64,000 nucleotides of DNA from IMG/VR virus record IMGVR_UViG_3300017949_000004, positions 28,249 to 92,248 of that record; one strand, written 5' to 3'. The DNA is from a virus. Numbering within the stretch: position 1 is the stretch's first letter; every line of letters starts with the position of its first letter. A model generated the notes under the pieces. The model was given only the letters and a program-made list of their open reading frames with translations, searched no databases and was not told the DNA's origin. Shown here one piece after another: positions 8,982 through 46,852 of the stretch. Made by a program: the position numbers and the translations under genes.

Positions 8982-9467
8982 CTATGCTGCCTCCAGTTCT
9001 TTTTGTAGTTGCTCGCCAGTGAACCACCCTTTGGCAGTTTTGAATTCACACTTATAATCTGAGCGTTCGCTCTGTGAGAGAGGAATCCATGACTCACTCT
9101 TAGCGAGAATTTCACGGCGCATGTAACCATGCTCGTCATTGTTGGTAAAACGCTGGCAAATCCAACGATCCATTTTCCAGACAAACTCGGTTACAGTATC
9201 CCAATCCTCGCATTCACGAGCATCGTCCTCAACGATCTCCCAACCTAGGATATACTCCTCGGAAGCCTCGTTACGGTACTCAATGAGATCCGTCAGAGTA
9301 GGAATGCCCTCCTGAGCAATCTTGTTGATCTGAGCAGTGCTCAAATTACGAACAACATAGGTGTCGCCACCCTTGAACTTCCAATACTGAGGGCACTCGC
9401 CCTTACCGTCCCAATCATGGGCACCGTAATTTTCTTTGTATTGGGTCCAAATAACTAACTTCGACAT
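8982..9467 (-). CDS. Unknown Trp-rich early protein
   Basis: 161 aa from ATG 9467 (GAGGAAG upstream), not the more distal in-frame ATG at 9527 which lies inside the promoter. Acidic with many Trp and Tyr; starts MSKLVIWTQYKENYGAHDW, a segment I associate with conserved phage proteins of unknown function. Base composition here is clearly more GC-rich than neighbours (codons such as CTC, GAG, ACC), hinting at a separate origin. Confidence 0.7.
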   Translation of the reverse strand: MSKLVIWTQYKENYGAHDWDGKGECPQYWKFKGGDTYVVRNLSTAQINKIAQEGIPTLTDLIEYRNEASEEYILGWEIVEDDARECEDWDTVTEFVWKMDRWICQRFTNNDEHGYMRREILAKSESWIPLSQSERSDYKCEFKTAKGWFTGEQLQKELEAA

Positions 9468-29431: not shown

Positions 29432-29482
29432 TATATGATAGCACCTTTTACGCTAAAAGTCAAGCATTTTTTTGACTTTTTT
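29432..29482 (-). repeat. 51-bp direct repeat carrying early promoter (copy 1, before cobS)
   Basis: Identical over 51 bp to 31757-31807. It spans the -10, spacer, -35 and upstream A-tracts, so the two genes have the same promoter. Confidence 0.95.
29435..29463 (-). promoter_or_regulatory. Early (sigma-70) promoter for cobS-like gene
   Basis: Minus strand TTGACT (29463-29458), 17 nt, TATCAT (29440-29435); A-tracts just upstream. Confidence 0.85.
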
Positions 29483-31756: not shown

Positions 31757-31807
31757 TATATGATAGCACCTTTTACGCTAAAAGTCAAGCATTTTTTTGA
31801 CTTTTTT
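31757..31807 (-). repeat. 51-bp direct repeat carrying early promoter (copy 2, before cobT)
   Basis: Exact copy of 29432-29482. Spacing to the respective ATG differs slightly. Confidence 0.95.
31760..31788 (-). promoter_or_regulatory. Early (sigma-70) promoter for cobT-like gene
   Basis: Minus strand TTGACT (31788-31783), 17 nt, TATCAT (31765-31760). Confidence 0.85.
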
Positions 31808-44264: not shown

Positions 44265-44293
44265 ATTATATTATTATTTAGAAGAAATGTCAA
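44265..44293 (-). promoter_or_regulatory. Early (sigma-70) promoter for queE
   Basis: Minus strand TTGACA (44293-44288), 17 nt, TATAAT (44270-44265). The -35 box lies in the last codons of gene 55. Confidence 0.9.
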
Positions 44294-44861
44294 GCTCTTC
44301 TGTGTTTGAATCTGACCTTTTATCTAAATACTTTGGTCTTCGTTTAATAACCTTTTTCTTGGACTGTTCTTCTTTATGCTTGGCTTCTTCTCTAGCATTG
44401 TTGTCCAATTGTTCTTGCATCCACTTTAGATATTCATTTGTTTGCGGGTCGTTGTCACCAACCTCATCCATTAAACTTTGTATATCTATACTCTGAAGAT
44501 ACTTAATCTTTTTGTTAATCATGTCTTTCTCTTTCTGTATTCTGCGCAAGAAAGCATAATAGGTTATTTGTGTGAAGTATGCGAATGGGTTTTTAGATTT
44601 TTCTGGATCAAAGTTATCAATATATGTTAAACAGTTTTCAATGCCGTCCAACACCATTTCATCTCTAAAAGTATAATTGATAAAATTAGATTTCATAGAT
44701 AAGTGATTTGCAATCTTAATAAAGCACTCACCTAAATAGTCCGTTACAGGTGGTTTGTCCCGCCCTTCTTCCTGGGCAGCTAAAACACTCTTCTTATACT
44801 CTGATATTTTTTGATAGAACTCTTTGTTGTCAACATAGTGAGCTCTTACGTTTTCTTTCAT
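44274..44861 (-). CDS. 55: Late-transcription sigma factor gp55
   Basis: 195 aa (T4 185) from ATG 44861 (GGAGACC upstream); earlier in-frame ATGs at 44894/44873 lack a ribosome site. KSNFINYTFRDEMVLDGIE and NPFAYFTQITYYAFLRRI match sigma region 2; the basic Lys-rich tail precedes the clamp-binding end. Directs RNA polymerase to TATAAATA with gp33 and gp45. Confidence 0.93.
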   Translation of the reverse strand: MKENVRAHYVDNKEFYQKISEYKKSVLAAQEEGRDKPPVTDYLGECFIKIANHLSMKSNFINYTFRDEMVLDGIENCLTYIDNFDPEKSKNPFAYFTQITYYAFLRRIQKEKDMINKKIKYLQSIDIQSLMDEVGDNDPQTNEYLKWMQEQLDNNAREEAKHKEEQSKKKVIKRRPKYLDKRSDSNTEELDISSK

Positions 44862-44887
44862 TTTGGTCTCCATTATAAAAATTTTTC

Positions 44888-44916
44888 TTGACAAGCGTAA
44901 CGCTTAGTCGTATAAT
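44888..44916 (+). promoter_or_regulatory. Perfect sigma-70 promoter on the plus strand, against all genes
   Basis: TTGACA (44888-44893), 17 nt, TATAAT (44911-44916). No plausible plus-strand gene lies downstream; the first ATG is followed by a stop. A 13-nt inverted repeat AAGCG-TAA-CGCTT (44893-44905) lies in the spacer. Confidence 0.8.
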
Positions 44917-44930
44917 TCGCTATGTAGCGA
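44917..44930. other. Inverted repeat at the start point of the plus promoter
   Basis: TCGCTA-TG-TAGCGA, right after the -10 box; operator-like or a 5' hairpin of the plus-strand RNA. With the AAGCG..CGCTT repeat it makes two palindromes in 38 bp of the 97-bp gap 44862-44958. Confidence 0.7.
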
Positions 44931-44958
44931 CAAAAGGATAATACACTTTAGTAATTAT

Positions 44959-45384
44959 TTAATGTACTGTCTTTTTAACATTGTTCATAGCATCAATCAT
45001 TTTATTTAATGCTTCCTCTTCCTCAGCGGAAACATAATCATCTTCAAATATTCCTTCATCTTCAACAAATGATCCTGTATACTCTACACTCTGTTTGTAT
45101 ACGGTGTCAACCAATTGTTTATATGAACGGTAAAACCTTTCTGATAAGGGATATGTTGTTATAACATTTATATCGTCAAAAGTTACTTGAATAGAATCCG
45201 TCATAGTCAAATAAGGTCTAATATGATTTATTTCTCCCAACCCTCTAGGGCCCGGTGCTGGCATTGACAAATACTCCAAAGGATACAAAACTGTAATTCC
45301 TTCTTGGGTTCTGTCTGTATAGCCTATAATATTTTGTCCACCTAACAGGCGAACAACTAATATTTGGCTTTCCTCATTTAACAT
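44959..45384 (-). CDS. Sm-like phage protein, unknown
   Basis: 141 aa. ILVVRLLGGQNIIGYTDRTQ starts as in the 110-aa protein at 21978-22310; C-terminus is acidic and helical. Starts within the last codons of uvsW. Function unknown. Confidence 0.65.
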   Translation of the reverse strand: MLNEESQILVVRLLGGQNIIGYTDRTQEGITVLYPLEYLSMPAPGPRGLGEINHIRPYLTMTDSIQVTFDDINVITTYPLSERFYRSYKQLVDTVYKQSVEYTGSFVEDEGIFEDDYVSAEEEEALNKMIDAMNNVKKTVH

Positions 45385-46852
45385 CTATCTTTACCAACTT
45401 ATAGTTAAACTTTTCTTCATTATATATTTTGATCCTTTCTATCATATGTAGAAGTGTATAATTCTTCTTAGACTTCCAGGATAAGTCGTCTCCTATATCA
45501 AACAGATTACAAGAAACTTTATTATCACCCTTTCTCAAACCCCTTCCTATTGACTGTAAGTTCCTAATTCTAGACTTACTAGGAGAAGCAAAAACAATAT
45601 TATGTAAGTTCCTTATATTTATACCCGTTGAAAATGTGCCGTATGATGCGATGATAATTGCATCTGATTCTTTTTCTGTAATAGAACGAATCTGTTCTCT
45701 AGTTTCTGTATCTGTACCACCGAATACAAAAAAGACCTTCCTGCCATCATTTACCTTTTCTTTGATCATCTCATAAAGGACTTTACCATGCTTCTCTACA
45801 TATTGAAAAAGTACAAGGGTATTTCCTTTTTGTGTTATAGATAAGTTTCTAATAATTACATTACGACTATGATTTGTAACAAGCCAATCCATCTCTTCTT
45901 GATAGTTCATTTTTTTAACTAACTGACGATCAGAATCTTTATACTCTAAAATCATTCCTATAATTTTTAAATCGGCAACCTGGTTTTCATCCATAAGTTT
46001 TTTAGTGGTTGTAACCTTGTATACAGATCCGAAGATGCCTTCTAAAACCAACTTATGTGTTTTAGTGCCATCCAAAGTTCCAGTAGTTCCTATTCTATAA
46101 GGAGTATTAGAGCATTTGTCAAGGATTGTAGTTAATGATTTTGCTTTAAACTGATGTGCTTCGTCGCCATAGACAACATCAAACTTTTCAAACCAGGACT
46201 TTGGAAACTTATAGATTGATTGCCAGGTTGAAATTGTGATAGGAAACTCGTTGGACTTTTCTTTGCCACCGTAAATCCTATGACAGTTTTCAGAGACCTT
46301 CCAATCAACTGCTGTAGCATAGTCTTGAAAGTCTCCGTACATCTGTTCTACCAACGAAGTGGTTGGTACTATGATTAATTGTTTTCTTCCTAGCTGTTGA
46401 TGATAACGAACCAGGGAATATATAATGAGAGACTTGCCTGAAGCAGTGGGAGACAATAGGAGACTCCTACCTCTATTAATTGCTTCTGTGATTCCGTCAA
46501 CTTGATAGTCTCTAACTTCAATATCTTTTCCATTGCTTTGTAGTTTTAACTCCTTTGTAAAGGTTTCAACGTAAGTCTTTGATACGGGATCGCCAATATC
46601 TTTGACATCTAAATTTAAATCGTACTCCAGTGTGTTGGCAAACTCTTGCAAATACGGCAAAAGCCCAACATATAATTCTTTTCTGTATATGTTAAATAAT
46701 CTAGCTTTACCGTCCCACATACGATTACGGTAAAGAGGCATAAAACGAGCACCTGGAACATCAAACGTAAAATAGTCGTTGAGTTCTTGAGCGATACCTG
46801 GATCAGTATCGACTAATAAATGTACTTCGTTTTTCTTTGTGACTTTGATCAT
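45374..46852 (-). CDS. uvsW: Recombination/repair helicase UvsW
   Basis: 492 aa (T4 502). SF2 helicase: Walker A SPTASGKS near residue 135, VVYGDEAHQF (DEAH), GTTGTLDG motif III, QSIGRGLRKG motif VI. Rewinds or migrates branched DNA and unwinds R-loops at origins; T4 uses it for the switch to recombination-dependent replication. Confidence 0.96.
   Translation of the reverse strand: MIKVTKKNEVHLLVDTDPGIAQELNDYFTFDVPGARFMPLYRNRMWDGKARLFNIYRKELYVGLLPYLQEFANTLEYDLNLDVKDIGDPVSKTYVETFTKELKLQSNGKDIEVRDYQVDGITEAINRGRSLLLSPTASGKSLIIYSLVRYHQQLGRKQLIIVPTTSLVEQMYGDFQDYATAVDWKVSENCHRIYGGKEKSNEFPITISTWQSIYKFPKSWFEKFDVVYGDEAHQFKAKSLTTILDKCSNTPYRIGTTGTLDGTKTHKLVLEGIFGSVYKVTTTKKLMDENQVADLKIIGMILEYKDSDRQLVKKMNYQEEMDWLVTNHSRNVIIRNLSITQKGNTLVLFQYVEKHGKVLYEMIKEKVNDGRKVFFVFGGTDTETREQIRSITEKESDAIIIASYGTFSTGINIRNLHNIVFASPSKSRIRNLQSIGRGLRKGDNKVSCNLFDIGDDLSWKSKKNYTLLHMIERIKIYNEEKFNYKLVKIDVK

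Follow-up and report, generated by a model that had tools for sequence, protein, structure and literature searches.

Why should a phage hold a perfect host-type promoter that points away from the gene of its late sigma factor and into genes that are all read from the other strand? The question is raised by a stretch of 64,000 nucleotides, hereafter the window, which comes from a T4-like phage of Kyanoviridae type. Among annotated phages its best relatives are Pelagibacter phage Mosig, Methylophilales phage Melnitz and Synechococcus phages, and its gene 55 is identical to that of a 162-kb IMG/VR contig (L003/G001). Few marine viruses are as abundant as the Kyanoviridae. Because they are without the MotA and AsiA of T4 (PMC2984593), the timing of their transcription is a puzzle, and a backward promoter that almost all of them have beside the gene of the late sigma factor offers a concrete candidate for the control of that timing; where infection transcriptomes contain antisense reads at this place, these are probably signal.

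The antisense promoter and its conservation

The promoter lies in the gap upstream of gene 55, the late sigma factor gene (44274–44861, minus strand; phrog_234, E 3.6e-57), between it and a gene of 141 aa (44959–45384, minus strand), beyond which are found the helicase gene uvsW (45374–46852, minus strand; phrog_16, E 1.4e-110) and uvsY, the surrounding genes being all on the minus strand. Gene 55 likely starts at 44861, preceded by GGAG, with an in-frame ATG also at 44873; the 141-aa gene has no PHROG match, and its relatives carry the name 'methylamine utilization'. On the plus strand, at 44888–44916, all 12 of the 12 positions of the sigma70 consensus TTGACA-17-TATAAT are present (−35 box at 44888–44893, −10 box at 44911–44916), with one palindrome in the spacer (AAGCGTAACGCTT, 44893–44905, arms AAGCG and CGCTT around TAA) and another directly after the −10 box (TCGCTATGTAGCGA, 44917–44930, plus strand, arms TCGCT and AGCGA around ATGT). 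The original prediction of a consensus promoter with two palindromes in an all-minus region is exact as to sequence, coordinates and gene strands. This is the sole 12/12 promoter on the plus strand of the window, the remaining 12/12 sites being all on the minus strand, and its geometry is that of a cis-antisense promoter, placed opposite to the strand of a gene and directed into that gene, so that any transcript from it would overlap the 141-aa gene in antisense and, further along its path, uvsW.

The relatives compared were the upstream regions of gene 55 homologues collected from IMG/VR, 161 of them unique once six loci without a convincing match had been dropped. An antisense promoter with two mismatches at most is found in 159 of the 161, against 11 expected from dinucleotide shuffles, and with one mismatch at most in 121/161, against 0.6 in the shuffles; the spacer is of exactly 17 in 150/161, and the orientation is always antisense. 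Sigma70-type hexamers at 16–18 bp are kept across the relatives, the −35 box as TTGACA (148/161) or TTGACT (13/161) and the −10 box as TANNAT or TANNCT, varying in the manner usual for −10 boxes, with A2 and T6 almost fixed. Although one 12/12 site per 64 kb could arise by chance, this promoter did not, because it is conserved in 159/161 relatives; judged by comparison of sequences, the element is real, as had been claimed, and deeply conserved, and the same conservation supports the regulatory position attributed to it beside the late sigma gene, with the 141-aa gene and uvsW lying antisense to it.

On inspection, one of the dropped loci (L130) does carry the element, and in another (L213) it survives with a decayed −35 box; of the 235 loci, therefore, five divergent ones (L037–L039, L047 and L225) truly lack it. 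The element is present in cyanophage Syn2. Upstream of gene 55 in T4, nt-1, RB49 and Rhizobium RHph_I9 there is no such element, and in RB43, where the element is likewise counted as absent, that region has a single promoter-like match in antisense, which lacks the TGT stem described below. A 24-nt match in Vequintavirinae (GAP31, 4MG), where the promoter boxes are absent, was set aside.

Some variants of this region may be recorded. In the elements of the freshwater group, of Melnitz and of G018, a second TTGACA is found 10–11 bp downstream of the first (loci L077, L160–L212, L244:3001–3037 and L342:1106–1142), and it is this second box that is retained in L213 and in the gene 55 copy of Melnitz, where the usual −35 box has decayed to TTGCTT. 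Three freshwater relatives share a further antisense TTGACA-17-TATAAT-ATCTTTGTC, which precedes gene 55 by about 2 kb (L165:1948, L171:1942 and L077:1939, all on the minus strand). In the Mosig record (L327, 1890–2000, minus strand) a 36-aa 'hypothetical protein' is annotated over the element, and this is probably not a gene.

The palindrome over the start site

The standard spacing of sigma70 promoters places the predicted transcription start at 44922–44924, within the second palindrome and on a near-invariant TGT (44923–44925) that is kept at the predicted start in 158/161 relatives. In most sequences the −10 box is followed by about five bases and then by the TGT, with complementary bases on either side, and the arms covary around it in about 20 combinations, such as AACTC/GGGTT, AACTC/GAGTT, AACAG/CTGTT, AACCT/AGGTT, CAGCG/CGCTG, TCGCT/AGCGA, ACTC/GAGT and CAGG/CCTG. 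The best stem scores 3.89 on average, as compared with 2.81 ± 0.09 after the 3′ parts have been swapped between sequences; in a non-redundant set of 69 representatives (<75% identity) it is 3.80 against 2.73 ± 0.15, and none of 2000 swaps reaches 3.80. As the arms change together and remain complementary while their sequence changes, this palindrome is conserved as a paired structure.

Conservation had been expected of both palindromes, and only that of the start site bears the expectation out. Similar dyads of 5–6 bp in the spacer, with differing complementary arms, occur only in the near relatives of the window (L004, L007, L010, L036 and L042), and over all relatives the spacer palindrome scores no better than shuffled spacers (3.46 vs 3.39).

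In which molecule would the pairing take place? The RNA hairpin proposed at first, formed by the promoter's own transcript, is rejected, because the sigma70 spacing leaves the 5′ arm upstream of the start, at −6 to −2, and therefore out of the RNA. A structure in the sense messenger, that of gene 55, is disfavoured by the pairs that are not Watson-Crick, which on the plus strand are G-T in 125 cases and A-C, a wobble pair only when read on the other strand, in 51, a count in which a large cyanophage group weighs heavily. Given that most of the 5′ arm precedes the predicted start, the palindrome probably folds, in the exposed DNA of the non-template strand, into a short hairpin with a loop of 3 to 7 nt between the arms that varies even among close relatives. 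A conserved hairpin straddling the start of transcription is unusual, and could reveal a new control of promoter escape. RfaH and ops (PMC2871177) offer a precedent for a signal that is read, within the transcription bubble, from the exposed non-template strand; that system acts in elongation with a known factor, whereas the structure described here spans the start site.

The nearest promoters by type are the host-like sigma70 early promoters of S-PM2 and Syn9 (PMC2984593), which have the same host-type −35 and −10 boxes and the 17-bp spacer; by their sequence, neither these nor the element would need a phage factor. However, those promoters drive early genes in sense, whereas the element is antisense to its operon and has over its start the covarying palindrome that other promoters in the same sequences mostly lack (a TGT stem in only 6 of 296).

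Downstream sequence and further copies

Downstream of the palindrome the conserved initial transcribed stretch ends in a purine-rich run (ACAAAAGGATAA, 44931–44942, plus strand); the information content reaches background at about +18, beyond which there is no sequence conservation. As predicted, no coding region follows, since no plus-strand ORF of at least 30 aa starts in the gap and the first ATG is at once closed by a stop, as ATG-TAG inside the palindrome. The next candidate for a small protein, the ATG at 44962, begins a frame of only 15 codons, a mirror of the neighbouring gene's C-terminus read in antisense, and it is not kept in cyanophages. An intrinsic terminator within 800 nt downstream is found at 3 of 151 loci and not at the other 148, so that the transcript would run long, and an Rfam 15 scan of 44600–45600 gave sub-threshold matches only, none at the gathering threshold. 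The discrete small RNA that had been suggested thus finds no support, there being neither a conserved terminator nor anything conserved past about +18. Furthermore, relatives differ in the gene that lies on the antisense path: in some it belongs to the 141-aa family, in some it is a different gene, and in some uvsW comes first. As conservation ends near +18, no ORF or terminator follows and the antisense partner changes, selection seems to act on initiation and not on a defined RNA.

Because extra copies, both sense and antisense, occur elsewhere, the element constitutes, as far as its sequence tells, a class of promoters whose one favoured site is beside gene 55. Among the full-length contigs and phage genomes compared, a single copy is the commonest state, as in the 162-kb relative of the window; four are found in G004, three in Melnitz and two each in G005, S-PM2, S-RIM32 and S-H9-1, with looser second copies in G006, G007 and G009, the core at the start site being retained from copy to copy while the spacers change. 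Sense copies precede small early-region genes in S-PM2 (S-PM2p212, behind the baseplate lysozyme gene), S-RIM32 and Melnitz. Antisense copies elsewhere are those of G004 (234550), G006 (1292) and G018 (48505), this last at a neck-gene junction in a phage without the gene 55 copy. It may be added that on contig G004 (L240:2956–3522) a sense copy drives a gene matching phrog_447, annotated as NAD synthetase; the same gene also matches families of homing endonucleases, so that the name given by PHROG could be mistaken.

Both sigma70 early promoters and antisense RNA are already known in cyanophages. The nearest named element is the PeSL cassette of T4-type phages, a promoter with a stem-loop that is occasionally duplicated (Arbiol 2010 and Comeau 2014, as cited in PMC4503421). 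The element shares with it a strong sigma70-like promoter, but in the account given there the PeSL stem-loop is a terminator, whereas the stem of the element lies across the start, with no T run behind it, and the element differs from those cassettes as there presented in having a fixed antisense site at gene 55. The literature searched gave no description of the element, and the cyanophage records that match it have no feature annotated at the site.

Possible roles beside gene 55

Gene 55 has in many relatives a promoter of its own. Between the element and gene 55, a sigma70-type promoter on the strand of gene 55, with two mismatches at most, is present in 101 of the 161 relatives, the expectation in shuffles being about 4, and is concentrated in the cyanophage-like set (89/104). 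Its −35 box shares the antisense box (TTGTCAA) in 27 cases and begins 8–19 bp from it in 61, and with boxes that overlap or abut in this way two polymerases could not occupy both promoters.

The reading that we tentatively prefer, with a likelihood somewhat short of even, is that of a host-sigma70 early promoter that insulates gene 55 in cis and competes with the promoter of that gene. Several steps would be involved: (i) a promoter of early type, which the Kyanoviridae and their relatives conserve and which faces the 141-aa gene and uvsW in antisense, would fire while host sigma70 is in use; (ii) the polymerase at this promoter would block, or collide with, transcription arriving from the uvsW operon; (iii) in most relatives the antisense promoter would also compete, through the overlapping or abutting −35 boxes, with the early-type promoter of gene 55; (iv) and finally, gene 55 would be kept from read-through until transcription by host sigma70 declines, with the start-site hairpin, on the non-template strand while the complex is open or begins to transcribe, probably tuning promoter escape. 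We infer the firing, its time, the blocking and the part of the hairpin from the arrangement just described, and the extreme conservation suggests that the element helps to time the infection. Competition would not be the whole function, since the lineage of the window itself and most freshwater relatives are without a consensus gene-55 promoter; and against a role specific to gene 55 stand the sense copies before early genes and the copy at the neck-gene junction, neither of which such a role would explain. A stronger version, that this is an undescribed promoter class of the Kyanoviridae in which a polymerase held by the non-template hairpin would serve as a roadblock, delaying the late sigma factor until host sigma70 falls, is doubtful; if true, it would supply a missing piece of late-program timing in phages without MotA and AsiA.

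Somewhat unlikely, too, is that the start-site dyad is an operator, at which a phage regulator would bind to repress or activate this promoter and its sister copies, forming a small regulon with a recognition particular to each genome. A dyad over +1 is a classical position of a repressor, and the copies speak in the same direction, as the start-site core is kept while the spacers differ within multi-copy genomes (the four of G004, the two of G005, the three of Melnitz), and as the weakly paired sense copies of G007, G009 and Melnitz still keep the 5′ arm and the TGT. However, most genomes have one copy only, the distance of 3 to 7 nt between arms lacks the fixed spacing of half-sites and suits a hairpin better than a dimer operator, for which frequent G-T pairs on one strand would also be ill suited, and no candidate regulator gene was found.

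Less probable again would be a replication origin, in which an R-loop of the antisense transcript primes the leading strand, and the primosome loads where the displaced strand carries the hairpin. A turning point in composition marks some T4 origins, while oriA and oriC are without one. At the element, no turning point of the GC skew was seen in the eleven genomes and contigs examined, although this is not strictly required. The likeness to T4 lies in a promoter that needs no ORF, with an R-loop on the template strand that leaves the other one free, as in oriF/oriG and oriE, the last of which uses an early promoter (PMC3016281); neither ORF nor terminator follows the element, and a displaced strand would be a fitting place for a structure that is conserved on the non-template strand. 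On the other side, oriF and oriG consist of MotA promoters with a downstream unwinding element (PMC3016281), whereas here there is no skew signal, the sense copies behave as ordinary gene promoters, and the number of copies is several in some genomes and one in others.

Slightly below the origin in likelihood, and improbable, is a long antisense RNA that would form a duplex with the uvsY-uvsW-55 messenger and either protect it or direct its processing. Its precedent is CfrI of S-PM2, a defined RNA, some 225 nt long, at psbA (Millard 2010, as described in PMC2984593), and antisense transcription in Kyanoviridae has been reported, with protection from RNase E proposed (PMC10976474); the long transcript expected where there is no terminator is also in agreement with it. 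In so far as CfrI is described in that source, both cases are antisense transcription within a cyanomyovirus operon, but here the promoter is predicted from sequence, lies at gene 55, and is followed by no conserved RNA sequence or terminator. With nothing conserved past about +18 and an antisense partner that changes, an RNA of this kind would moreover leave the start-site hairpin and the sense copies unexplained. As for a chance promoter with chance palindromes in A+T-rich DNA, to which the lack of an excess of promoter-like sites in the window (33, against 31.8 in shuffles) could be credited, its probability is negligible, for it is refuted by the dinucleotide shuffles (159/161 vs 11), the near-invariant TGT and the covarying arms.

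Two other arrangements of promoters or promoter-like sites in the window may be noted. At 9031–9080 (plus strand), within a minus-strand gene, a promoter-like TTGGCA-16-TATAAT is followed directly after its −10 box by the palindrome GAGCGTTCGCTC; and at 29435–29463 and 31760–31788 (minus strand) two promoters have an identical stretch of 29 nt, TTGACTtttagcgtaaaaggtgcTATCAT, which represents a duplicated early-promoter cassette.
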